DNA from: Bacteroidota bacterium
GTDB lineage: Bacteria > Bacteroidota > Bacteroidia > Bacteroidales > UBA12077
Length of the DNA: 64,000 bases
Direction of reading: 5' to 3'
Assembly: GCA_020444275.1 (NCBI GenBank)
Contig: JAHLLG010000001.1
Location: 186,001 to 250,000 of the forward strand
In this document: positions 41,671 through 64,000 of the stretch, piece after piece
Layout of the letters: each line of letters begins with the position of its first letter
Numbering within the stretch: the stretch's first letter is position 1
Made by a program: the position numbers and the translations under genes
Notes under the pieces: generated by a model
Databases searched by the model: none
The model's input: only the letters and a program-made list of their open reading frames with translations
What the model was told of the DNA's origin: nothing

Positions 41671-42438
41671 CTAATTTCCCCAACCACTTCGATCCAAACT
41701 TCGGTATTGTATGGCTTCTGCCAAATGGTACGATTGAATATTTTTAGTTCCTTCCAGGTCGGCAATAGTTCGCGATACTTTTAAGATACGGTCATAAGCC
41801 CTGGCCGACAGTCCCAACTTTTCCATCGCTTTTTTCAGTAATGTTTTTCCTGCATTATCAATTTCACAATGTTCACGAATCTGTTTCGACGACATTTGTG
41901 CATTGCAATGAATATCATCTTTATCTTTATACCGTTCAGATTGAATTTCCCGGGCTGCAATTACACGATTTCGAATATGTTCACTACTTTCTGCCGGCTT
42001 AACTTCGGAAAGTTCATCGTACGAAACCGGAACAACCTCAATGTGAATATCAATGCGGTCTAAAAGTGGCCCTGAAATTTTATTTAAATATCGCTGAATA
42101 TTTCCCGGAGCACAAACGCACTCCTTATCGGGATGGTTGTAATATCCACAAGGACATGGATTCATTGAAGAAACCAGCATAAAACTGGCAGGATATTCAA
42201 CTGTAAATTTTGCACGACTAATGGTTATTACCCGATCTTCAAGAGGCTGTCGCATTACTTCCAGTACCGATCGCTGGAATTCAGGCAGTTCATCCAAAAA
42301 GAGCACCCCATTATGTGCCAAAGAAATTTCTCCGGGTTGAGGAAACCCACCGCCACCAACCAAAGCCACATCAGAAGTTGTAATACAAAATGAGGTGATA
42401 ATATTAACTAATTTTAAAATTTTAATTTGCTTGATCAT
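41671..42438 (-). pseudogene. C-terminal half of YifB/ComM (Mg-chelatase-like AAA+ protein), 5' end lost
   Basis: From [21 protein letters not shown] to the end, the frame is a clear YifB/ComM C-terminal part: Walker B in [12 protein letters not shown], the sensor block [14 protein letters not shown] with its extra Cys, arginine residues in [13 protein letters not shown] and the C-terminal [17 protein letters not shown]. Normal YifB is about 510 residues; here the first half, including Walker A, is missing. The first 22 residues of this frame are unrelated sequence joined just before the SDVAL block (about 42,380). The product cannot bind ATP properly. The break coincides with a repeated 24-base motif, so an insertion is the likely cause. 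Confidence 0.85.
42374..42397 (+). repeat. att-like 24-base direct repeat, copy A (in yifB)
   Basis: Reads GAAGTTGTAATACAAAATG and then AGGTG. Aligned without gaps it shares 21 of 24 bases with copy B (48627-48650) and 18 of 24 with copy C (43901-43924). It sits exactly where yifB similarity ends. Confidence 0.65.
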
Positions 42439-42554: not shown

Positions 42555-43847
42555 ATGGAAAATATTGAATGGCTTGATATTTTAAAAGTAATTATTTCGA
42601 TAATTACAGTAGTTTTAGCTATTATAGGCGTCATTTATGGAAATGACTTGATAAGCAAAAAACGTGATCTTAGAAAATCATACGAAGATAGAATTAATAC
42701 TTTCCACAGACCAATTTTGCAAGCCTTTACAACTAGCAAAATGCTTAAAGACGTATTAGAGAAACTAATAAAAAATAAACCTAGTGACTTTAGAACGCTC
42801 CCTTATCTTATTGAAAAAGAAGGGAATATTGCTCCGTCAGAAAAGAAGGTTATAGAAGAAATTGTAAGTGTCGGGAAAGAAATAGAAAATTTAATTAATG
42901 AAAATGCAGGGTTGATATTGGACAATAATCTCAGAGAAGAAGTTGGTATATTATCTCGTCATTTAAGAATTTTTAGATTTGTAGCACAAAATAGTAAAGA
43001 ATATGATTCAAATGAATTCAAAGAATTTGTTTACCCACGAGAAGTAAATGAAATGATTGAAAGAGAATATCGAGCAATTTTGCGAATGTTGCAAAATGAT
43101 ATTGAAAACAAATATCTTGAAGAGATAGAGATAGGTTGTAAAAGCAATAAAATTTGTTACCTATGTGCTCAGATAGTTGGTAATCCAGATCAAGATTTAA
43201 TCCACAAAATTATGGGTGATTCAATTCATCTTTACAAAAGACGAATATATTTTGAAAATGAAAAATTTGCAATAATTCCAAGTATTGGGCCATTAACATT
43301 AGGTCATGTTTTAATAGTTCCTAAAAAACATTTTAATAGTATTTCGATGGTTGAACCTTTTGATGAGTTAGATATTTATAAAAATGAAATGACGAAATTA
43401 TTAAACATAATATTTCAAAATCCTATTCACTTTTTCGAGCATGGTAATTCATCGAAAACAAAACGTTTATTGTGTTCAACTGAACATGCCCACTTACATG
43501 CTTTTCCATCAAAAATTGAGAACTATGTTGAAGTTTCGTCAATGATAAAAACGTTTAAATGGACCGCAACAGATATTAAGTTTAAAGAAGTTTCAAATTA
43601 CGTTAATGATACAGAATATCTATTTTATGAAACTCCAAATGGAAAGACTTATCTGAAAATATTTAATGATAATAAAATTGAATCGCAATTTTTTAGAAAA
43701 CTTGTATCTGAAATTGATGGTAAAAGAAAAACCTGGAATTGGAAACAATTCCCTAGACTAGATACTCTAAAAGATACAATCAAACAGTTAGAAAAATTTC
43801 AAAATAAAATTGAAAAGAAAGAGTACTATTCACAACGGAGGCTATAA
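42555..43847 (+). CDS. Membrane-anchored HIT-domain protein
   Basis: A 430-residue protein. An N-terminal membrane helix (about 9-28, ILKVIISIITVVLAIIGVIYG) is followed by a helical region (30-195), a CxxC pair (CYLCAQ, about residue 198) and a histidine-triad domain. In the latter, GPLTLGHVLIVPKKH and the H-x-H-x-H motif (EHAHLHAF, His311, 313, 315) are intact. HIT proteins hydrolyse nucleotide-phosphate bonds (AMP-NH2, Ap4A and similar). A membrane anchor plus long helical spacer is unusual. It is the only gene between copies A and C of the att-like repeat, so it may be a stand-alone cargo gene. Its partner or target is unknown. Confidence 0.8.
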   Translation: MENIEWLDILKVIISIITVVLAIIGVIYGNDLISKKRDLRKSYEDRINTFHRPILQAFTTSKMLKDVLEKLIKNKPSDFRTLPYLIEKEGNIAPSEKKVIEEIVSVGKEIENLINENAGLILDNNLREEVGILSRHLRIFRFVAQNSKEYDSNEFKEFVYPREVNEMIEREYRAILRMLQNDIENKYLEEIEIGCKSNKICYLCAQIVGNPDQDLIHKIMGDSIHLYKRRIYFENEKFAIIPSIGPLTLGHVLIVPKKHFNSISMVEPFDELDIYKNEMTKLLNIIFQNPIHFFEHGNSSKTKRLLCSTEHAHLHAFPSKIENYVEVSSMIKTFKWTATDIKFKEVSNYVNDTEYLFYETPNGKTYLKIFNDNKIESQFFRKLVSEIDGKRKTWNWKQFPRLDTLKDTIKQLEKFQNKIEKKEYYSQRRL

Positions 43848-43900
43848 AACATCCGCTTAATAGTATTTTTAGCAATGAGCCTCAAAACAGCTTAAAATCA

Positions 43901-43924
43901 GAAGAAGTGTTAAAAAATGAGGAG
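43901..43924 (+). repeat. att-like 24-base direct repeat, copy C
   Basis: Starts GAAGAAGTGTTAAAAAATG and then AGGAG, in the same orientation as copies A and B and with 18 of 24 bases identical to each. The remaining 43848-44100 gap is AT-rich with no gene. Confidence 0.5.
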
Positions 43925-44100
43925 TGCTAATTAATTATTCTTAGTATTAAAATTAACTATATTGATTATTATTTCCAACAAAGATTAAGAAAAGCAGTTT
44001 TATTTTAACATTTGCTTTAGATATAATCAATATATAGATATATAGTGAGCTCAAAATAATTATAGGATGATGGATTTTTGTATCTTCTATGACTAATTAC

Positions 44101-45198
44101 TCATAAACTCATCATTACTGAATTTTCCATTCTGGTTTCATTTATCATTTTTATTGTTGAATTACAAATACATGGTGTATAAATACATGGAGAACAATTA
44201 CCAGACTTGAAATGTCGACAATTCTTATTTATTTCTTTAGGATGCAGTTCCGGATCATAAAGCCTTCTGTAGGATTCGAACAACTCTGATTGCCAAATCT
44301 CACTAACTTCGTGTTCTAATAAATTCATATTAGCTCCCTTTAGATTCAAGTATGAACAATATGATTCTGGCATAAAATATCCAAATGGACATGGGCTACA
44401 TCTTCCCTCTGAATCTAAATATAACATAGTTGTTGCTGCTTTGCAAGGGATATAAAAAAAAGGTAGTCCGACTTGTTTATATAGATATTCACCCAAAAGA
44501 GGTCTAGCATGCAATTCCACCCTCGGTTGTTTATACTTGTCTACAAGGCTTTTTAGAGTTAAAAGTTTTTCAATTGCCTGAGACCATAAATTTGGGTTTC
44601 TCTTAGAATTGTCATCATGATTAATTTTTCCTCTGCCAAGATTAAGCTTCAATGAAATTCTTAGTGCAGGTAGTTCCCATTTTCTTGTAAGTTCGTACGC
44701 TGCTTCAAGTTGGTTAATGTTTTTATCAGTTAATACCCAGAATAGATAAGGTTTTAAATTGTACTCTTTTAAAATGTTGATACCTTTTTCAACTAAACTA
44801 AAGCTTTTTGAATTAGTAGTAAATTCATGATAATATTGTCGATTGGTTCCATAGAGACTAATTTGGAAATAGCTGATGTTTTCATGAATTTCTTTTAGTG
44901 TTTTAGCTGTTTTCTTAGTGATAAGAGAACCATTTGTACTAAAAACCATTAGCATACCTTTTTTGGCAACGTATTTCATCACTTCAAGCATATCTTTCCG
45001 ATAAAAGGGCTCTCCCCCGAGGAATCTAAGAAATAGAACACCACTTGAATGTAATTTATCAATTATTGTACATGCCTGCTTGAAATCAAGTTCATTTTTA
45101 GATCGCTTTCCACTACTTGACAAACAAAAAGGACAGGAAAAATTACATCCTGCTGTAACATCCCACTGGGCAAGTATTGGTGTAATGATGTTTTTCAT
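44101..45198 (-). CDS. Radical SAM/SPASM peptide-modifying enzyme
   Basis: A 365-residue enzyme from the ATG at 45198; an upstream in-frame TTG at 45231 would add 11 residues. The N-terminus carries the radical-SAM motif C-x3-C-x2-C (GCNFSCPFC) and FLRFLGGEPFYRKDM, the SAM-binding GGEP block. The C-terminal third has SPASM/twitch-type cysteines: CKAATTMLYLDSEGRCSPCPFG, then CRHFKSGNCSPCIYTPCIC, enough for auxiliary iron-sulfur clusters. Enzymes of this layout modify ribosomal peptides (thioether, C-C or epimerisation chemistry). The gene is 155 bases downstream of a Cys-rich precursor-like gene on the same strand. The reaction is inferred, not known. Confidence 0.88.
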   Translation of the reverse strand: MKNIITPILAQWDVTAGCNFSCPFCLSSSGKRSKNELDFKQACTIIDKLHSSGVLFLRFLGGEPFYRKDMLEVMKYVAKKGMLMVFSTNGSLITKKTAKTLKEIHENISYFQISLYGTNRQYYHEFTTNSKSFSLVEKGINILKEYNLKPYLFWVLTDKNINQLEAAYELTRKWELPALRISLKLNLGRGKINHDDNSKRNPNLWSQAIEKLLTLKSLVDKYKQPRVELHARPLLGEYLYKQVGLPFFYIPCKAATTMLYLDSEGRCSPCPFGYFMPESYCSYLNLKGANMNLLEHEVSEIWQSELFESYRRLYDPELHPKEINKNCRHFKSGNCSPCIYTPCICNSTIKMINETRMENSVMMSL

Positions 45199-45353
45199 TT
45201 TTGAGACTTTATTTTCATTCTCTTGATACAATAATTTCTAATTACTTAAAATTACTTCGTTAGCTAACAAATTGTTTGCGGCCATAGTTCTAAGTATGCT
45301 AAGAGTCTAATTATTTTGTTGTTAAGAGGTTTGTTAATTAAATTCAATGGTTT

Positions 45354-45641
45354 CTACATAATATCAGAACAACCCATACAACCCATACAACCCATACAAC
45401 CCATAAGGCTAGTTTTAGCTATACCGGATTCAATAAACGCAGCTCTAGCACGTTCAAGAATATTATCTCGAACTTTGTTTAGATTGTTAATCATCTCTTG
45501 ATCACATCTGATGTCACGTTCTTTTATAGTCTTTATAGGGCTGACTAATAATTCCATAAGCAAAATATCATCTTTTTCGATTGAATTTTTAAAATCAAAT
45601 GTAGATTTCGCTTTTGATTCTGGAGGTCTTTTCTCTTTCAT
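45354..45641 (-). CDS. Putative RiPP precursor peptide with C-terminal (Met-Gly-Cys)4 core
   Basis: A 95-residue protein without a signal peptide. Residues 1-78 are charged and helical, suited as a leader (FDFKNSIEKDDILLMELLVS, then QEMINNLNKVRDNILERA). The C-terminus is TSLMGCMGCMGCMGCSDIM: four perfect Met-Gly-Cys triplets and nothing else but a five-residue tail. The downstream radical SAM/SPASM gene and this layout are what is expected of a ribosomally made, post-translationally modified peptide. The four triplets are encoded by four identical 9-base units. A good promoter precedes it. I do not recognise the precursor family. Confidence 0.7.
   Translation of the reverse strand: MKEKRPPESKAKSTFDFKNSIEKDDILLMELLVSPIKTIKERDIRCDQEMINNLNKVRDNILERARAAFIESGIAKTSLMGCMGCMGCMGCSDIM
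45369..45404 (-). repeat. 9-bp tandem repeat, four perfect copies, inside the precursor core
   Basis: ACAACCCAT (plus strand) occurs four times without mismatch. Read on the minus strand each copy is ATG GGT TGT, one Met-Gly-Cys unit. Slippage by one copy would change the core by one triplet without shifting frame. Confidence 0.95.
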
Positions 45642-45687
45642 AACTTCTCTTTTTAATTAAACATAGTATTTAGTCAATTTAATTAAA

Positions 45688-45718
45688 CAAAGTTAGAGAT
45701 TATAATAGGTTGCGTCAA
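45688..45718 (-). promoter_or_regulatory. Promoter of the precursor peptide gene
   Basis: On the minus strand: TTG (45718-45716), 20 bases, TAACTTTG (45695-45688). Predicted start near 45682, giving a leader of about 41 bases before the ATG at 45641. Confidence 0.65.
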
Positions 45719-45764
45719 TCGCAATTAATAAGTAATCAGTACTAATTACCTATATATAATTAAT

Positions 45765-45971
45765 TTATAAATTAATACCATTTTTAATAGCCCAAATTAT
45801 TAGTTCCGATTGTGAATGAGTATTAGTCTTTATGTGTATGTGGCGTATATGCGTATCTACAGTATGAATAGAGAGGTTTAATGTATCAGCAATTTGTTTT
45901 CTGCATTTAGCTTTTAGTAATTCTTGAATAATGTCAACTTCTCTCTTGCTTAAAATAAGTTTTGATTCCAT
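45765..45971 (-). CDS. Stand-alone LuxR-type helix-turn-helix protein
   Basis: A 68-residue protein that is nothing but a LuxR/GerE DNA-binding domain: LSKREVDIIQELLKAKCRKQIADTL, then SIHTVDTHIRHIHIKTNTHSQSELIIWA. No receiver, ligand or PAS domain is attached. Such free-standing regulators bind DNA as dimers and are controlled by their own level or by a partner. It lies 123 bases upstream of the precursor gene on the same strand, and the precursor has its own promoter in that gap. A role as local regulator of the peptide locus is likely by position only. Confidence 0.85.
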   Translation of the reverse strand: MESKLILSKREVDIIQELLKAKCRKQIADTLNLSIHTVDTHIRHIHIKTNTHSQSELIIWAIKNGINL

Positions 45972-46194
45972 AACATAAAATCTTTATATATTTATTAAGT
46001 CATGTTATTTGCTCATAGGTTACGTAATAAAATTTATGCTTTTGTCACTTAAATTATTTTTTCACTTATAATGAGTTACTATCAATCTTTCTAGTTTTAT
46101 TAAAGTATATTGTGACAGAACATTGCTAAGTTTTATTTATTAAAAATGATATATTAAATATTATAACCAAAGAAATTCGTTTATATTCAGACTC

Positions 46195-47919
46195 TTAATT
46201 GATGAAGGAAGATAGTTTATTAAATGAGTAAGCGATTCTTATACCAGAATTAATGGTATCCTCGAATTTTTCATTTTCCTTAGTGTTGTTATCGAACATG
46301 TCATTTTTTTGTATGAAAAAGCCAAATAAAAATTTGTCACTTTTTTTATAAAAGTTGATACCTAATCCAACTGTAGACTCATTAGCTAAATATTCGCTAT
46401 TATTCCAATAATGTCTAAAGTATGGATTAATAGTTAATAAACTTGCTCCTTCTTCACTAGTTTTTAATTTAATCAAATAGGCATAATCAATAGAAAAAAC
46501 TTGCCTCCTTTGATCAATGTAATTGCCACTATATGCAGATTTAACTTGTTCAGAATGATATCGATTTCCTGAGATCGTATCAATATGGGTTACTGAATAG
46601 TTACTTTCTGTTAGATCATTAAAATTGTTTGACCTATCATACATAAAAGATATGCCAATAATATGCTTACCTGAAAATGATATGTTATAACCAAATTCAT
46701 AAGAGAGTCCTTTAAATTTCTCATTTTTAAACACTAAAGAATCTACAGTCATTAAGCTGGAGAAAACAGTGTCAATCCTACTAAACTCACTTCCAAATAA
46801 CCCAGATCGCAAAAAAACGGTGCCTCTAATTATACCTCCTGAGCTTTGCTCTAACTTTTGTATTTTTAATATTCTCTGTGTATTTGAATCAGAATTAAGT
46901 TTTCTGTTATTTGCATTTTCAATTTTTTTCTTCACCACTTTATTATAGAAATCTTTCTTAATCATATCAACCTCATCATATGTGAAGCCAACTCCAAGAA
47001 AGAAATCAAAATACTCATAATCATTTAGTTCTTTTGTTTGTATAATCTTCATTTCTTGATATGAAGTTATGTTAGTTGCTACCTTATTTTTAACATCAAT
47101 TTCAAAATATGAAGCTAAAGTATTGAGCTTTGTTTTATTTTCATATAGAGGTAGTTCAATAGCCATAAATAGCTCATAAACTTCTTGAGCTGCTTCATTT
47201 TTAGTAAAATCAACATCTCCAACTTTAACTAAGAAATCCTTACGTATTTTATTAATTTCTGTCTGCTTTAAATTAAGCCCCAAATTGACTGATAAGTCCT
47301 CCCTATATGCACCAAAGTTGTTTGCATACTTATAGTCAACCTCATTAATTGTATTAAATGCTATTTGAGGTTCACTTAAAAAGGAGTTAGCATTTTCTTT
47401 ATTGAAATGAGTGTACTTGTCAGATATTTTTTTCTTCACAGAAGTGGTATTCAAAAACCTAAAGTTGAACAGCTTAGTCTTCTCATTATCCCATACCACT
47501 GATTTTATGAACGAATCATAAATGGTATTATAGTCTTCTGCTAAGTCAATGAAAGGATCTGCTTCTTTCTGCTTTTTGATCATTTCCATCAATACCTTTC
47601 TCCCCTTATCCATTCTAAAAGAAAATCCAACAAAGGCACTCAACTCGGAGCTAATTACAAAGTCTCCATCCTTAAAAAGAAAAGAATCATCATCTGCAGA
47701 GCCTCCTTTATAATTTACTCCCCACAAAAATGGAGTTAATCTTGATCTTGAGTCAGCAAGGTTATTAATACTCAAGGAAAGTGTTTCATCCGTGCTCAAG
47801 GATAGTGAAGATGGAGTATTAAGAAAAGTAGTTCGTTCCTCATCATCTGAGAGTATAAATTGTGCATTTATTCGACCAATAAAAAGAAACAATAGTCCGA
47901 CTAAAAGAATAATTTTCAT
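46195..47919 (-). CDS. Exported hypothetical protein, probable outer-membrane beta-barrel C-terminus
   Basis: A 574-residue protein with a signal peptide (1-19, ending RINAQ). The middle (about 110-330) is helical and charged, with repeated KKI/KKDF segments. The last 200 residues look like amphipathic beta strands with aromatic ends (GLSYEFGYNISFSGKHIIGIS, VFSIDYAYLIKL, FLFGFFIQKNDMF), suggesting an outer-membrane barrel. No known transporter family is recognised. It follows the 118-residue protein gene by 2 bases, so they form one operon. Position next to the peptide locus allows a role as export or receptor component; unproven. Confidence 0.7.
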   Translation of the reverse strand: MKIILLVGLLFLFIGRINAQFILSDDEERTTFLNTPSSLSLSTDETLSLSINNLADSRSRLTPFLWGVNYKGGSADDDSFLFKDGDFVISSELSAFVGFSFRMDKGRKVLMEMIKKQKEADPFIDLAEDYNTIYDSFIKSVVWDNEKTKLFNFRFLNTTSVKKKISDKYTHFNKENANSFLSEPQIAFNTINEVDYKYANNFGAYREDLSVNLGLNLKQTEINKIRKDFLVKVGDVDFTKNEAAQEVYELFMAIELPLYENKTKLNTLASYFEIDVKNKVATNITSYQEMKIIQTKELNDYEYFDFFLGVGFTYDEVDMIKKDFYNKVVKKKIENANNRKLNSDSNTQRILKIQKLEQSSGGIIRGTVFLRSGLFGSEFSRIDTVFSSLMTVDSLVFKNEKFKGLSYEFGYNISFSGKHIIGISFMYDRSNNFNDLTESNYSVTHIDTISGNRYHSEQVKSAYSGNYIDQRRQVFSIDYAYLIKLKTSEEGASLLTINPYFRHYWNNSEYLANESTVGLGINFYKKSDKFLFGFFIQKNDMFDNNTKENEKFEDTINSGIRIAYSFNKLSSFIN

Positions 47920-47921
47920 AA

Positions 47922-48278
47922 CTAAATAATTTGTGTGTTTAATAGAATCTCTGTTAAAGAGCCATCCGTGTCATCAATTTTTATAGGTTGGTTAAGAAGT
48001 TTTTTTTCACCCTGGTTGCAGAGAGTTGCTTTAAGTTCCATGAAAGACCCTGTAGGTCCTTCAGCAGTAATTGCTATTTTCTTAATTAATGTGCAATCAT
48101 CATTAACGATTACACTTATAAATTTCCCGGAATATTTATCTCCGTTTCTATCTAAACTTAAATTTAAATGAGAATTTGGATGCCCTCCAATCTTCATTAT
48201 ACCATGAAATTCGATTGAGGTAACGATAATGTTAGGGCTAGAAAGTTTTAATTCGTAAGTAACGTTTGTAAGTTTCAT
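47922..48278 (-). CDS. Hypothetical beta-rich protein
   Basis: A 118-residue protein without signal peptide or membrane segment. The pattern of alternating hydrophobic strands (VTYELKLSSPNIIVTSIEFHG, then LNLSLDRNGDKYSGKFISVIV) suggests a single beta-sandwich or barrel domain. No conserved catalytic motif or known family is recognised. Its stop is 2 bases before the start of the 574-residue exported protein, so the two are translated from one message. The upstream gap holds an inverted repeat (GTCCAC 48325-48330 with GTGGAC 48354-48359). Function unknown. Confidence 0.65.
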   Translation of the reverse strand: MKLTNVTYELKLSSPNIIVTSIEFHGIMKIGGHPNSHLNLSLDRNGDKYSGKFISVIVNDDCTLIKKIAITAEGPTGSFMELKATLCNQGEKKLLNQPIKIDDTDGSLTEILLNTQII

Positions 48279-48763
48279 AGTTGATAGGTTTAATTTTAGA
48301 ATACATAAGTTAAGGGATTGAGAAGTCCACTTTTATTCAAGTTGTTATACAGGGTGGACAATCATGTTTTGATGTGAAAGGGATCTAGATCACGGATGTA
48401 TAGGACTAAGGAGGTTTATGGAATACTTTTTTCATATTAATCTAAATATTAATCTGAAATTTGTACTCCCCTTAAAGTCAATACGTTCTAAAAAGAAAAT
48501 CTGATTATACGCAAGTTATAAAATAATATATCAAAAGTAAAATAGAATGAGTTTTTCTTTTTTGATATTATGATACAATATAAGAACTATTAATTAGTCC
48601 ATCTAGCCTCATAGTATTATTTCCTGAAGTTGTATTGCAAAATGAGGGGTGCATGTTATTTAATATTTAAATGTGAATAATCAGTTTATTTTTAACACAC
48701 CTATTGGTTTTTTACTAAAACACATTTACTCCGCTGCACTTCGCAAATGAGCTTTAAGCTAAT
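48279..48763. other. Intergenic region with palindromes and att-like repeat
   Basis: No gene is seen in 485 bases. It contains the inverted repeat GTCCAC/GTGGAC (48325-48359), the palindrome GATCTAGATC (48382-48391) and copy B of the att-like motif (48627-48650). Confidence 0.6.
48627..48650 (+). repeat. att-like 24-base direct repeat, copy B
   Basis: GAAGTTGTATTGCAAAATG followed by AGGGG; 21 of 24 bases match copy A in yifB, same orientation. It separates the peptide locus from the DarTG/nuclease cluster. Confidence 0.65.
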
Positions 48764-49918
48764 TTAAATAGCCAGTTTACTTTGCTTGTGGTATAATTCC
48801 ATGCCAGGTACATTGCTATATCTCTCATTTAATCTACTTCTTAGGTTGAATAATCTTCTTTCAGCTGAATCAACTATTTGTGAGAATAGGCATATTTGTA
48901 CTTTTCCTATTTCAACTTTGTGTTCATTTTCAATAGATTGAATGGGTTGGACTTTCTCATTAAATGTTTCTCCAACTACGAAAGCGTTTATATATGGATT
49001 TCCTATTATTGTTCCACATTCCATAAAATCTTCAACGTATCCAACTGCTTGATTTCTTTCTTCTCTGGTTAATTTAAATCCACCTCTTTTAAGTTCAATT
49101 ATTAAAATTTTATTTACTGTTGTTAGCCCATTTTCGTTATCATATGCAACAGTTCCAGTTATTGAAAAGGTTGAACTTCCCTTCACAACAATATCTGGTC
49201 TTTTTCTATTATTTTTGAAAATTTTCTTATCAATTTTTTTACCAAATACCTTTTCAATTGTTGTTTGCAATTGATTGTTTGATGCATATTCAGGTGAATC
49301 AAATTCAGGACCAAAAATCCATCTAGCACTTGCAATTAATGGATGCAAAATATGCAGTTCATCAACAGTTTTATCATTTGAAAGTTTTCTAATTGCTTCA
49401 ATTACAGTTATTCTTTTATCTATCTCATCTAAAACAGTTAATGCATCTTTAATACTCCAGTTGTCAAGTATTTTATTCAATCCTTCAATATCTTCATGTG
49501 ATAGTAATGATAACTTTTGTAGAAGTTCACTTCCACTTCGTGTTTTTTCTAAGTTTAATATTGTTTCAACGGCTAAAGCAATTGAATCTTCCCTGGCTGT
49601 GGGATTTGATACTGTTATATTTTCAATTGCTTCATTAAACTCATATTTTGCCAAAGGACTAAGTTCTTCATACTGCTTCTTATATTCCTTTTTTATATGT
49701 TTTGTAGTTTCTTCAATATTCTCATTCGCTATCTTTGAGAACATGGACTGAACATGTTCATCAATTTTTTCAAATATTGGTTCTAAAAACTTATCCTTCT
49801 TGAAACCTGACCAATCTTCTAATATGTAATCTGCTAAATCATTAGTTTGAACAACAATGGAATATCTTTTAGCCTGTCTGGTTCTTCCATCCAATACCAT
49901 TTTTTTCCTAAAATCCAA
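48764..49918 (-). CDS. PD-(D/E)XK-like nuclease half of a GHKL-nuclease protein (-1 frame)
   Basis: This 384-residue frame has a helical part (1-240) and a C-terminal nuclease-like domain: RPDIVVKGS, then KILIIELKRGGFKLTREERNQ. The Asp and E-x-K spacing fits PD-(D/E)XK enzymes such as Shedu-type nucleases. It opens with a TTG at 49918, in the -1 frame relative to the upstream GHKL gene and overlapping it. The sequence KKMVLDGRTRQAKRYSIVV continues naturally from the GHKL part, so the two are halves of one protein of about 638 residues. The join is at the seven-A run (49906-49900). A separate start at the ATG at 49900 is possible. Likely anti-phage role. Confidence 0.75.
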   Translation of the reverse strand: MDFRKKMVLDGRTRQAKRYSIVVQTNDLADYILEDWSGFKKDKFLEPIFEKIDEHVQSMFSKIANENIEETTKHIKKEYKKQYEELSPLAKYEFNEAIENITVSNPTAREDSIALAVETILNLEKTRSGSELLQKLSLLSHEDIEGLNKILDNWSIKDALTVLDEIDKRITVIEAIRKLSNDKTVDELHILHPLIASARWIFGPEFDSPEYASNNQLQTTIEKVFGKKIDKKIFKNNRKRPDIVVKGSSTFSITGTVAYDNENGLTTVNKILIIELKRGGFKLTREERNQAVGYVEDFMECGTIIGNPYINAFVVGETFNEKVQPIQSIENEHKVEIGKVQICLFSQIVDSAERRLFNLRSRLNERYSNVPGMELYHKQSKLAI

Positions 49919-50679
49919 GATGGTTCACCAACCAAACGTCCACTTTGCCAAACTGCTATTCCTTGATATAGTGTAGACTTTCTTGACTTTTTAGAGTCAA
50001 TCAGATGAATATTAAGTTTAATCTTATTTACACTTATCGTATCAGAAAAAACAAGCCCTTGATGTTGTTCTAGCTGGATTGTTTTTTTATTTATGGAAAT
50101 TATAAATTTAGGGTCATGTAAGAAACGTGCTGAAATAACTTCTAAGATTGTATCTGCACTGGGCAAATTTTTTTCTACATTAACTTCAAGTCTTACTCCC
50201 GATTTATTGGTTTTATTAAATTCCTGAGACTTTATAAGAAAAGGTTCATTTTCACTTTTGGTGGTTATAGTAAATTTTGATTCTATACCGTTTTTTTTAG
50301 CAATTACTACATATTCATTATTGAAACAAAGCATTCCATGTCTTCCGACTCCATTTCTTCCATAAGCATATCTTTGTAAACTAACCCCTTTTGGGAATTC
50401 AACTTTTTTTCCTTGATGTTTTAATCTATTGTAACCAAGCTTCATCCATCTTGAGTAAAATTCATCTTTTGTCAGTCCAATACCATTATCTTCAATCGTT
50501 AATTTCTGTCCCTTTTCTTCTGGTATGAAAACCTCAACCTTAGTAGCTCCTGCATCCCAGGCGTTGGCAACTAATTCTGTAAGTGCAATTTCAGGTGAAT
50601 TTCCTAAACTTCCTAAAGTTCTAATAAGATAATCATCTTCAAAAAGTGAGCCTTGAATAATGTCACTGTTATTTTTCAT
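49834..50679 (-). CDS. GHKL (Hsp90/MutL-like) ATPase half of a GHKL-nuclease protein
   Basis: A 281-residue frame with the Bergerat ATP fold: ALTELVANAWDAGATKVEV (catalytic Asn region), IEDNGIGL (N2 box) and GRNGVGRHGM (lid). These match histidine kinase/gyrase B/Hsp90-like ATPases. After residue 260 the frame turns into an unrelated 21-residue tail and stops at 49834, whereas the -1 frame continues smoothly. If frameshifting occurs, the product is a 638-residue ATPase-nuclease; if not, a short ATPase domain. It lies 37 bases downstream of darG on the same strand, so it belongs to the same transcript. ATP-dependent control of a nuclease is the likely logic. Confidence 0.78.
   Translation of the reverse strand: MKNNSDIIQGSLFEDDYLIRTLGSLGNSPEIALTELVANAWDAGATKVEVFIPEEKGQKLTIEDNGIGLTKDEFYSRWMKLGYNRLKHQGKKVEFPKGVSLQRYAYGRNGVGRHGMLCFNNEYVVIAKKNGIESKFTITTKSENEPFLIKSQEFNKTNKSGVRLEVNVEKNLPSADTILEVISARFLHDPKFIISINKKTIQLEQHQGLVFSDTISVNKIKLNIHLIDSKKSRKSTLYQGIAVWQSGRLVGEPSWILGKKWYWMEEPDRLKDIPLLFKLMI
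49900..49906 (-). promoter_or_regulatory. Slippery heptamer A_AAA_AAA (candidate -1 frameshift site)
   Basis: In the GHKL frame the codons are GGA AAA AAA TGG, so the heptamer is correctly phased for -1 slippage, which gives ...Lys-Lys-Met-Val-Leu and enters the nuclease frame. ATGGAA starting 9 bases after it can pair with TTCCAT further downstream, a possible stimulatory stem. Confidence 0.6.
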
Positions 50680-50716: not shown

Positions 50717-51757
50717 CTAATGTAAATTAGGTATTATATCATTTAACTCTAATCCCATTAAAGAATTAATAATTAACCCTCTTTTTTTTAAAAAGTCTAA
50801 TACTTCAATTATTTCTTCATCTGTAAATCTGCTAGCTTTTTCTTCTGACCATTTTTTAAATTCTACTGACACTAGTTCTTGTGGTATTGACTTTTTATCT
50901 AATAAGATAAATAAGACAGTTGTTATTAATTCAACCTTCTTATCCGATGATAGCTCATTCAAAAATTCAATTGCACTTCTTGTTGGCTTAGAATACTTTT
51001 TCAACTTCTCAATTACACTATCGCTCATTAATGTATTTTGAGCTAATTCAAATGCTTGTTTAGTATTGAAATTGTAATAATCTTGATATTCTTTTATCTC
51101 TCTACTTAAAATATCAATAGAATGATTATATGGTCCATAATTGTAAGCCTTAAACTTAAAATACTCTTCTCCAGAGAAGATGTTTATTAAAAATGCTCCC
51201 TTTTGCAATCTAGTTTTATTGAATTTCTCCAATCCGATTTTTAATTTCATTAATATTAAGTGAGAAGCATTAAGTTTAGGCACCTTCTTCTTATTTTTTA
51301 TTGAATTAACAGTAAATGATGGTTCATACAGTATAAAATCGTATTTGCCTTCGAAAGGACTTAGTTTTTCCACTAAGATTTCTTTTACTTTATTCCATTC
51401 TAAGCCACCATTACCACAACCCAAAGGAGGGAAAGCTATTGATTTTATATTTAAGTCAGACAGTTTATTAATTAAAGTATCTAATCCTTTTTGAATGTAT
51501 TCATACTTTGATTTTTTTCTCCATTTATCTTTTGTTGGAAAATTCAGAATAATCTTATTCGTTTCGTGATATGCTAGGATAGAACCAATTTTAAAATTTC
51601 CAGACTTACACTGTTTAACATACTCCTCATTATTTGCAGGGTATCGTAGTTTAAATTGATAAGCAATTCCTTTACCCATATAACCTTCACAATTTACAGT
51701 ATTAACAATTGCATCAGCATTTGAATCTAGTATGTTTCCTGTGGTAAAACTTATCAT
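50717..51757 (-). CDS. darG: DarG macrodomain antitoxin
   Basis: A 346-residue protein. The N-terminal macrodomain (1-155) has TGNILDSNADAIVNTVNCEGYMGKGIA, the ADP-ribose-binding start, and FPPLGCGNGGLEW. The C-terminal part (about 165-346, LILMKLKIGLEKFNKTRLQKG, YNYGPYNHSI) matches the second domain of DarG, which binds the toxin. DarG removes ADP-ribose that DarT places on thymidines of single-stranded DNA and neutralises DarT directly. The ATG overlaps the darT stop by 4 bases. Together with darT it is a complete toxin-antitoxin/anti-phage pair. Confidence 0.92.
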   Translation of the reverse strand: MISFTTGNILDSNADAIVNTVNCEGYMGKGIAYQFKLRYPANNEEYVKQCKSGNFKIGSILAYHETNKIILNFPTKDKWRKKSKYEYIQKGLDTLINKLSDLNIKSIAFPPLGCGNGGLEWNKVKEILVEKLSPFEGKYDFILYEPSFTVNSIKNKKKVPKLNASHLILMKLKIGLEKFNKTRLQKGAFLINIFSGEEYFKFKAYNYGPYNHSIDILSREIKEYQDYYNFNTKQAFELAQNTLMSDSVIEKLKKYSKPTRSAIEFLNELSSDKKVELITTVLFILLDKKSIPQELVSVEFKKWSEEKASRFTDEEIIEVLDFLKKRGLIINSLMGLELNDIIPNLH

Positions 51758-52338
51758 TTTACAAATATATTATTTAATACATTTACATAAAAGGAGTTGT
51801 TTGCTCCAACTATTTCATCTCTTAATTTTATTACTTCCGCTTTAGCCTCCTCATCGGAAACAATTATTGAGAAAAAATCTTTAGCATCAATCCTAGTATC
51901 TGTTAAGCATTCTGCCATACAAATTTCTTTACATTCTTTATCAGAATACTTGCGCTCTGCCATTTTATCCCAATTGATAGTATTCATTCCATTATCGTAA
52001 TCTAGTAATGTGCATTCTTTTAGTGATAAAGGGTGTTGTGGTAGGATTTTAAATCCTTTTGTCTTCGCAAGTTTTCTTGTTAGTGTAATAAATATGAATT
52101 TTTTGTCAGGATGCGCTTTTTGCACAGAACCATCAAATGGATTTAATGGAAAGAAATGAAAGGGAACAAGGCTATTCAGACCTTCCTTTTCTCTATGAAG
52201 TATAATTTCTCTATCAGCAACATCAACAAATTCTTCAGCGTCATTTCTTGAAAGTAATCCATTTTTTAAAATGCTTTCTAAATTTTCAATTGAAGTTAAA
52301 TGATAAATTAATTTACCTTCTTTAGGAGGTGTAGCCAT
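51754..52338 (-). CDS. darT: DarT ssDNA thymidine ADP-ribosyltransferase toxin
   Basis: A 194-residue protein matching DarT (DUF4433): IYHLTSIENLESILKNGLLSR at the N-terminus (NAD-binding His), FVDVADREI, VPFHFFPLNPF and MAECLTDTRIDA near residue 150 with the catalytic Glu (M-A-E-C-L). DarT transfers ADP-ribose from NAD+ to thymidine bases in single-stranded DNA, blocking replication of host or phage. The gene precedes darG with a 4-base overlap, so antitoxin synthesis is coupled to toxin translation. All key blocks are present, hence probably active. Confidence 0.93.
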   Translation of the reverse strand: MATPPKEGKLIYHLTSIENLESILKNGLLSRNDAEEFVDVADREIILHREKEGLNSLVPFHFFPLNPFDGSVQKAHPDKKFIFITLTRKLAKTKGFKILPQHPLSLKECTLLDYDNGMNTINWDKMAERKYSDKECKEICMAECLTDTRIDAKDFFSIIVSDEEAKAEVIKLRDEIVGANNSFYVNVLNNIFVK

Positions 52339-54456: not shown

Positions 54457-54524
54457 ATATAATGCAATATTATAATAAATATTATGGTTTATATAATGCA
54501 ATATTATAATAAATATTATGGTTT
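54457..54524. repeat. 34-bp perfect tandem repeat (two copies)
   Basis: Units 54457-54490 and 54491-54524 are identical. Each contains TAATGCAATATTATAATAA and the partial palindrome AATATT...AATATT. They fill the gap between two HTH-tailed protein genes and resemble iterons or a double operator. Confidence 0.85.
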
Positions 54525-54549
54525 ATGTGTAATGTTAGTTTTTCATAGT

Positions 54550-62762: not shown

Positions 62763-63077
62763 TTACCAAAAAAGGAAAGATCTGTTCTTATGCCATAGTA
62801 CCTTACTTCTAGAAATACTAAAATGGCTCTTACATCCTACTATTCTAGATACTGATGGGTATAAGGATATTTTTTTATTTGCTGTTAAATAGTGCCAGCA
62901 AGGTGAAACGGTTTTCAACAAATTTAGATGTATAACATCTTGACATCCACAAGGACATTTAAAACTGAGTAACCATTTATTATTTGATTCTCCAATAACA
63001 TATATACATTTCGTTTGATAATTTTCAGGTGGATCAAGAACATTTTTGTATTTGTATCTTCTTCTAAATAATTTCAT
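62763..63077 (-). CDS. DUF6527 family protein
   Basis: A 104-residue basic protein resembling the DUF6527 family: NYQTKCIYVIGESNNKWLLS, then FKCPCGCQDVIHLNL and SHFSISRSKVLWH. The Cys-x-Cys-x-Cys cluster (CPCGC) and an upstream Cys suggest a zinc-bound fold. Members are often found beside ThiF/E1-like genes in bacterial ubiquitin-like modification or anti-phage loci, as here: the ThiF-like gene ends 6 bases upstream. The biochemical role of DUF6527 is not established. The family call rests on recognised pattern and context. Confidence 0.7.
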   Translation of the reverse strand: MKLFRRRYKYKNVLDPPENYQTKCIYVIGESNNKWLLSFKCPCGCQDVIHLNLLKTVSPCWHYLTANKKISLYPSVSRIVGCKSHFSISRSKVLWHKNRSFLFW

Positions 63078-63083
63078 TTTAAT

Positions 63084-64000
63084 TTATATAGATAATTCCG
63101 GCATTTCAAGATAAGGTATCACATCACCTCGCCCAATATTCTTTGCTAAAAATAAATCTTTAGAATACTTGTTTTCTCCTACATTAACAATGAAGTTTTC
63201 TGTCATATCAATTGTACTTGCAGCATAATAATCAGGAGAATCTACCTTATACTGGTGCACTCTGTTTAGAAATTCATTAATTGCATGGCTTGATATTTGC
63301 ATATTTATACTAATTACAGCCGGACTATTTACATTTATATTCTTTATGTATGAATTCTTTTTTAAATGAAAATATTCGTTTGGATTTTTCCTATACTGAC
63401 TTGAGGATCTTACATCGTCTAAAGTATATACACCACGCGTAAGTAGGGAAGATTTGCCAGGTTGTATATAGTGAACAGTTCCGCATATTTTTGATATACC
63501 TCCTTTATTATCTGCCTCTAATTTAACTCCAAGATCAAAATAGGGGATTATATAAAATGTACTCAACTGATTAATTAAATACCTTCCATCAACACTATCC
63601 AGACAGCCAAAAATAAGGTCACAATTTGAAAGTGATTTTAGTAAATCTTTATTTTCATATATATTATGTCTATAAGTTATAATTTTAGTTTCTAAACCAA
63701 TATTATTATAAGCATCAGCTAAAACATCCACTTTATATCTTTTTTTTTCGGCATCACTCCTAGTGGAATTTAGTATCCTATTTAGATTTTTAGTTTCAAC
63801 AATATCGGGATCTGCAATAACAAGTTTTCCTACACCTAAACGAACAAGTTGTTCAATAACGATACTGCCTGTCCCTGATGCTCCAACTATACCAATCTCC
63901 ATGCTGTTTAACATTGTGTACGTTTTCTCTCCAAATGCTTGTATTGTTCTTCGAGCAAAATCATCATTTAACGTTGTTTTTGGTTGATTAAAAAAGGTAA
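63084..64000 (-). CDS. ThiF/MoeB/E1-like adenylyltransferase, 5' truncated by window edge
   Basis: Open from the window edge to the stop at 63084, so about 305 residues are visible. Upstream of the internal Met at 63914 the frame continues with DDFARRTIQAFGEKTYTML, the usual E1 N-terminal helix. The nucleotide-binding motif IGIVGASGTGSIVIEQL, the Asp in IADPDIVETKNLNR (metal/ATP), and CDLIFGCLDSVDGRYLIN (acidic residue for adenylation) are present. It would adenylate the C-terminus of a ubiquitin-like or sulfur-carrier protein. A catalytic Cys in the C-terminal part is not obvious; GCLDS could serve. Adjacent DUF6527 points to a defence-type Ub-like locus. Confidence 0.85.
   Translation of the reverse strand, partial: TFFNQPKTTLNDDFARRTIQAFGEKTYTMLNSMEIGIVGASGTGSIVIEQLVRLGVGKLVIADPDIVETKNLNRILNSTRSDAEKKRYKVDVLADAYNNIGLETKIITYRHNIYENKDLLKSLSNCDLIFGCLDSVDGRYLINQLSTFYIIPYFDLGVKLEADNKGGISKICGTVHYIQPGKSSLLTRGVYTLDDVRSSSQYRKNPNEYFHLKKNSYIKNINVNSPAVISINMQISSHAINEFLNRVHQYKVDSPDYYAASTIDMTENFIVNVGENKYSKDLFLAKNIGRGDVIPYLEMPELSI

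Follow-up and report, generated by a model that had tools for sequence, protein, structure and literature searches.

The locus described here raises the question of whether a small protein that ends in a run of Met-Gly-Cys units is the substrate of the radical SAM enzyme encoded next to it, or whether the two genes are unrelated neighbours. We followed up an earlier note on a 64,000-nucleotide stretch of a Bacteroidota genome (the window, in what follows), in which this pair had been put forward as a candidate new RiPP system. Our best reading, to which we give a probability of about 0.5, is that the 95-aa protein is a RiPP precursor made of a helical leader and a Cys-repeat tail, and that the adjacent radical SAM/SPASM enzyme is its maturase. 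The features on which the argument turns are collected in Table 1.

Table 1. Features of the putative peptide locus and its close neighbours (window positions).
Feature	Position	Strand	Basis or remark
Radical SAM/SPASM enzyme, putative maturase	44101..45231	-	Pfam Radical_SAM and SPASM; CX3CX2C
Putative precursor, 95 aa	45354..45641	-	ORF and coding score; charged leader, predicted helical; tail (Met-Gly-Cys)4-Ser-Asp-Ile-Met
Perfect 9-bp tandem array, unit ATGGGTTGT on the minus strand, encoding the Met-Gly-Cys repeats	45369..45405	-	Tandem Repeats Finder
TTG-N20-TAACTTTG promoter-like match	45688..45718	-	about 46 bp before the peptide ATG
LuxR/GerE-type DNA-binding protein, 68 aa, possible regulator	45765..45971	-	PF00196, E 7.7e-14
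574-aa protein, no family, signal-peptide-like start (by eye)	46195..47919	-	Pfam, NCBIfam, PADLOC, PHROGs
118-aa protein, no family	47922..48278	-	Pfam, NCBIfam, PADLOC, PHROGs

The Met-Gly-Cys protein and its repeat

The open reading frame is as the earlier note had described it, with 95 residues and a C-terminal sequence (...TSLMGCMGCMGCMGCSDIM) that holds four exact Met-Gly-Cys units plus SDIM. We trained a codon model on 45 ORFs of the window, each 150 aa or longer, with the region of the finding excluded; under it the peptide frame scored 0.083 bits per codon over the whole ORF and 0.146 over residues 1-81, against -0.13 to -0.24 for the other five frames at the locus. The training ORFs scored no lower than 0.051 (median 0.164), and 43 spurious ORFs no higher than 0.114 (median -0.18); the whole-ORF score of the peptide overlaps just the top of the spurious range, and its leader score lies above that range. 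The frame is coding-like, and its leader scores like a gene. The leader had also been called helical and charged, and helices are indeed predicted at residues 17-32, 35-41, 48-71 and 74-82, with the Cys tail left without structure, but this single-sequence AlphaFold model is of low confidence (mean pLDDT 58.8), and we keep the helical leader as provisional.

The tail is unusual in its surroundings: of 206 ORFs that are 60 aa or longer, taken in all frames from the window and from three further stretches of the same genome (L236, L237 and L240), the peptide is the only one with at least four Cys within its last 20 residues. That its core belongs to no described precursor family agrees with Pfam, NCBIfam, PADLOC and PHROGs, in which the peptide found no family and a single sub-threshold match (NCBIfam, E 0.068); among the titles listed in a literature search, likewise, none described a (Met-Gly-Cys)4 core, which is no proof of its absence in print. 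Among 20 genomes of the genus the peptide was found in its own genome only, and among 395 of the phylum in its own genome plus three weak matches (L219-L221). These three were judged to be chance, two of them being parts of open frames 718 and 449 aa long and the other containing five internal stops. Plasmids gave nothing for the peptide, and none of the 12 stretches that matched its pattern in viral contigs was a relative.

The same tail could also act as it stands, in a small metal-binding protein whose four evenly spaced Cys are direct ligands of Cu, Zn or an Fe-S cluster, the radical SAM enzyme being either unrelated or in need of the bound cluster. Metal binding is an established behaviour of Cys-rich peptides, and a Cys at every third residue of an accessible C-terminus would suit it; on the other side, no metallothionein or other metal-binding family was matched in Pfam, NCBIfam or PHROGs, and no gene for metal transport or metal regulation was recognised among the neighbours scanned. 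We consider this reading quite improbable and rank it third, behind the RiPP reading and a minisatellite, and ahead of a RiPP with other chemistry.

The minisatellite concerns the repeat as DNA, which is a perfect array (4.1 copies, 100% match, score 74). The highest Tandem Repeats Finder score in the window, 140, belongs elsewhere, to a perfect 34-bp tandem duplication of 2.1 copies at 54457-54526. No second coding pattern for Met-Gly-Cys-Met-Gly-Cys occurs elsewhere in the 4.2-Mb genome; when up to three mismatches were allowed, three further places came up, all at three mismatches, compared with six for the reversed control pattern. The wider DNA pattern for (I/M)GC was found elsewhere in at least 117 genome stretches and 93 viral stretches, with identical units in 206 of the 333 matches listed and the Met form in 28 of the 210 loci listed. 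As an observation in its own right, 9-bp arrays that read (Ile/Met)-Gly-Cys are widespread, extending over many phyla and viral contigs (loci L009-L218). None of the 210 listed loci gave a radical SAM match to the window enzyme (tblastn, E 1e-3), whereas comparison radical SAM loci did, and since no locus exceeds about 15 kb and the match sometimes falls close to one end of it, a distant radical SAM gene could be missed. Arrays of this kind, being common elsewhere, mostly built of identical units and in no listed locus accompanied by a radical SAM match, arise by themselves. The window repeat may be under selection at the protein level, but its identical DNA units permit a plain minisatellite account.

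Under that account, slippage lengthened a 9-bp minisatellite close to the 3' end of a small gene of the island that has some other function, and the radical SAM gene is an unrelated neighbour. The fact that the sole Cys-rich ORF end among the 206 adjoins a radical SAM gene argues against such a history, as do the position of the array, which lies in the reading frame shortly before the stop of a coding-like ORF and has no second example in the genome, and the Cys-repeat neighbours that also occur beside two distant relatives of the enzyme (see below); in its favour stand the perfection of the array, the figures just given for (I/M)GC loci and the 155 bp that separate the peptide stop from the enzyme ATG (45198). 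We regard it as the most serious competitor, possible though somewhat unlikely. Should the protein indeed be no RiPP, the locus would serve as a warning that 9-bp minisatellites often read (Ile/Met)-Gly-Cys and can mimic RiPP cores.

The adjacent enzyme and the gene order

A radical SAM gene does follow the peptide gene on the same strand, in agreement with the earlier note, and its product matches PF04055 with 73.8 bits against a Pfam cut-off of 29.5 (E 2.4e-20). The enzyme measures 376 aa from a TTG and 365 aa from the likelier ATG at 45198; in the ATG form, the CX3CX2C motif occupies residues 18-25 (C18, C22 and C25), with a further Cys at 43. Of the claimed SPASM-type cysteines, the domain assignment stands and the canonical spacing does not: residues 263-339 of the 376-aa form match PF13186 over the cut-off (E 8.7e-5, 23.2 bits against 21.5), but the C-terminal Cys of the 365-aa form run C252-X14-C267-X2-C270-X10-C281-X45-C327-X7-C335-X2-C338-X4-C343-X1-C345, which departs from the usual SPASM motif, CX2CX5CX2CX17-35C, as described for AhbD (PMC10452713). 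Judging from the residues themselves, their number would be enough for auxiliary clusters, though the spacing differs from the usual one. AlphaFold modelled the enzyme poorly (mean pLDDT 48.8, with residues 246-365 under 50). The enzyme gene has a codon score of 0.011 and the LuxR/GerE-type ORF one of only 0.004, low values that would fit a foreign origin.

No named maturase family in NCBIfam claims the enzyme, as none of the best 25 of 73 matches reaches its curated cut-off; the top scores are 105.1 bits against 650 (TIGR04546) and 104.6 against 265 (TIGR03962). The generic matches among these 25, far under their cut-offs, include AhbC, mycofactocin, AhbD, NirJ, StsB (a sactipeptide maturase) and PqqE, and AlbA is a weak generic match of 49.6 bits. 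Viperin was tried and rejected, with PADLOC pVip at 57.7 bits over residues 22-132 only and NCBIfam viperin at 49 bits against a cut-off of 180.

This mixed company, in which enzymes of mycofactocin, heme (AhbC, AhbD, NirJ) and PQQ stand besides StsB, gives some room to the thought that the same precursor and enzyme make a product other than thioethers, by C-C links, epimerisation or a backbone change at Met or Gly, the thiols staying free. TvgB, which performs C-C chemistry on a Cys-free repeat (PMC9062424), would be a model for it. Cys is, however, the conspicuous residue of the window repeat and of both analogues discussed below, and we hold this outcome to be very improbable.

RREs are described as common, not universal, in such radical SAM RiPP enzymes (PMC8326336). 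The window enzyme leaves no room for an N-terminal one, as 17 residues precede its first cluster Cys, and no RRE was found at the locus, the genome's one PqqD match lying about 120 kb away, though divergent RREs could be missed. As a side observation, that PqqD match (L239; C7:110913-111113) stands beside a 145-aa ORF, which we take to resemble a lasso-peptide protease, and a 256-aa ORF with an internal direct duplication lies just upstream in L239.

Close relatives of the enzyme were found only in its own genome among 395 genomes of the class (1e-40 and 1e-22), and the same held for 393 genomes of the order (1e-21). Among 25 genomes of the family, one other genome gave three generic matches of 28-29% (1e-15), and among 296 of the phylum seven other genomes gave matches of 24-28% (1e-20); these draws overlap, and in the large ones just the best first-look candidates per genome were scored. 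A search for close relatives only, in genome contigs that include other phyla, matched the pattern in 16 stretches, none of them a relative, and the one stretch matched in viral contigs was not a relative either. Plasmids yielded 169 records with best listed identities of about 28%, mycofactocin maturases leading, phage records eight matches, all under 60%, and PDB sequences nine matches (best E 1.7e-8), SkfB and PqqE included. As neither a close relative of the enzyme nor a convincing one of the peptide came up in the genomes searched, the pairing is seen at a single locus.

The good promoter said to precede the peptide gene is uncertain. TTG-N20-TAACTTTG is the Bacteroidota-type promoter consensus; the upstream match in Table 1 is one of 12 in the window (6.7 in mononucleotide shuffles), but a sigma-70 scan performed at chance level (24 sites, 28.3 expected) placed no site just upstream of the peptide. 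Terminator-like sites are absent from 43800-48800, where 1.5 were expected in shuffles, which is weak evidence. Pfam identified neither a leader protease nor an exporter in the neighbours scanned, three of which matched no protein family; among 25 genomes of the bacterial family, the 574-aa neighbour occurred only in its own.

The locus nevertheless has the anatomy of a RiPP: a short precursor with leader and core, encoded beside a putative modifying enzyme. Counting for this reading are the coding frame, the sole Cys-rich end of 206 ORFs next to a radical SAM gene, the radical SAM and SPASM domains, the helical leader and unstructured tail of the low-confidence model, the promoter-like match before the peptide and, weakly, the lack of a terminator-like site between the genes, together with two distant analogues (L226 and L232) and the precedent of TvgB (PMC9062424). 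Counting against it are the lack of close relatives in the genomes searched, the identical DNA units, the commonness of (I/M)GC arrays and the 0 of 210 listed loci with a radical SAM match, the non-canonical SPASM spacing, the want of a recognised RRE, protease or exporter, the 155-bp gap, the low codon score of the radical SAM gene and the mere four residues after the last Cys. The interpretation of the earlier note is thus retained for its anatomy and its analogues and weakened by the identical repeats and by a neighbourhood in which the usual partners were not recognised.

If the RiPP reading is right, the helical leader would dock on the enzyme, and residues of the flexible (Met-Gly-Cys)4 tail would be oxidised by it with the help of a 5'-deoxyadenosyl radical and auxiliary Fe-S clusters. 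The likeliest outcome is that Cys sulfur would be joined to carbons of nearby residues, giving thioether rings and up to four losses of 2 Da. What we observed is the ORF with its coding character, the repeat, the radical SAM domain and Pfam SPASM match of the enzyme and the order of the genes on one strand; the joint working of the two genes, this chemistry, and any cleavage, export or role in competition or island-borne defence are inferred. Four identical Cys units would then make a simple substrate for studying how one radical SAM enzyme, without a recognised RRE, sets several links in succession.

The interrupted comM gene

On either side of the cassette lies one half of comM: window 41671-42438 encodes the C-terminal half, C7:255683-256534 (L236:6684-7535) the N-terminal half. 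The intervening DNA, about 27 kb, has the look of a mobile island, running from window 42438 to beyond 64000 and ending at L236:6684 (C7:255683). A large serine recombinase of 518 aa (L236:5118-6674) adjoins the N-terminal half, and a second resolvase was noticed at L236:4479-5066. At the other end, a 430-aa protein (window 42555-43847) adjoins the comM break; its HIT-domain matches are weak and fall slightly short of the Pfam cut-offs, and in PHROGs it matches phrog_23000, a family of unknown function (E 9.6e-15).

Among the remaining contents, PADLOC recognised a DarT (E 2e-36) and DarG (E 1.6e-92) toxin-antitoxin pair at window 50717-52338, and a ubiquitin-like operon (window 62763-64000 and L236:85-2176) encodes a multi-ubiquitin protein, an E2 and a 463-aa JAB-ThiF (JAB-E1) protein. 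The last of these crosses the window end, window 63084-63914 being its C-terminal part, and a DUF6527 gene lies behind it. There is an overlap between a GHKL-ATPase gene (49834-50679) and a 384-aa ORF (48764-49918) that matches SduA/DUF4263 weakly (E 7e-4), and the two may be either a two-gene system or a single gene in two frames. Were the RiPP reading correct, a peptide-modifying system would belong to the cargo of an island that splits comM, beside defence-type modules.

Distant analogues and known systems

In 12 loci where the enzyme has a distant relative, we screened for ORFs between 30 and 129 aa long that carry at least four Cys in their last 30 residues. The rule was passed by 18 ORFs in 7 of the 12 loci, of which two (L226 and L232) were found by eye to have a Cys-repeat peptide adjoining the enzyme; the remaining ORFs were set aside as chance-like or, in L228, ferredoxin-like. 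L225 and L227-L231 have radical SAM ORFs of 413-427 aa, and no convincing Cys-repeat peptide was found there.

The first analogue (L226/L234; genome G823, of the same phylum) has an enzyme that shares 24-28% identity with that of the window in its radical SAM part, and 135 bp after its gene a 73-aa ORF ends in CQCNCTCTCTCTCPCMCTCTCLNTR, a (Cys-X)n repeat. Its Cys and Thr codons vary, which argues that this repeat is kept at the protein level. Upstream of the enzyme lies a PqqD-like protein of 97 aa (weak match, E 0.0054). Compared with the window, the period is thus 2 rather than 3, the peptide stands downstream of the enzyme, a PqqD-like protein stands upstream, and the enzyme shows, by eye, the usual SPASM Cys spacing. 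At 1e-40 this enzyme was found in 1 of 13 genomes of its family, its own. The region (L234:5296-8394) may be a separate peptide system, made of the PqqD-like protein, the radical SAM enzyme and the (Cys-X)n peptide, and by reading it continues with kinase-like and phosphatase-like ORFs.

The second analogue (L232; MT836680.1) is a human faecal scaffold filed as phage, in which a 38-aa ORF (MTNPEMTTLDIGCWGCLGCASCGIGVSLLSALSGANVI) with IGC-WGC-LGC-ASC precedes a 456-aa radical SAM/SPASM ORF by 80 bp. Its peptide and that of the window have the C-X2-C-X2-C-X2-C spacing in common. The enzymes are 24% identical over 341 columns. That of L232 has AlbA as its best NCBIfam match (174 bits, where the cut-off is 850), and some 110 residues precede its radical SAM core. 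Three stretches of viral contigs matched the L232 enzyme, none of them a relative. In L232:2054-7692 a relaxase-like ORF and, after the radical SAM ORF, an ABC-transporter-like ORF were recognised by reading, and the element looks more like a plasmid or an integrative element than a phage. Both loci were picked by eye and support the RiPP reading only as analogies to the window pair, not as homologues of it.

A bolder thought, which we regard as rather unlikely, is that the locus represents a new class of RiPP borne by a mobile island. Its enzyme, lacking an RRE and having an unusual auxiliary-cluster region, would close a (Met-Gly-Cys)n tail into small thioether rings set in a regular ladder, to serve in competition or against phages, and would be kin to a scattered Cys-repeat set that includes the (Cys-X)n peptide of L226 and the (x-Gly-Cys)n peptide of L232.

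As to systems already named, subtilosin acceptors lie C-terminal to its cysteines, and the window peptide, unlike subtilosin, has only four residues after its last Cys; set against AlbA-type sactipeptides such as subtilosin, and against L232, it has a long leader and almost nothing after the cysteines. ACGX, CcpM, CefB and SbtM are, by their NCBIfam names, maturases of Cys-rich or Cys-repeat peptides; these names appear as generic matches of the L226, L232 or L233 enzymes and are absent from the best 25 of 73 families of the window enzyme, a comparison made by names only.

A close parallel in design is TvgB of Halomonas anticariensis, a radical SAM enzyme that modifies its TVGG-repeat precursor TvgA several times (PMC9062424). 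Its core is free of Cys, whereas that of the window is Met-Gly-Cys; its chemistry forms C-C bonds on valine (cyclopropylglycine); and it belongs to a five-gene cluster with oxidase and peptidase/transporter genes, unlike the window (PMC9062424). The window core matched no family searched, and repeat-core radical SAM RiPPs as such are already known, since in TvgA/TvgB, as in the window, a short tandem-repeat core adjoins a radical SAM enzyme of the SPASM-related group (PMC9062424).
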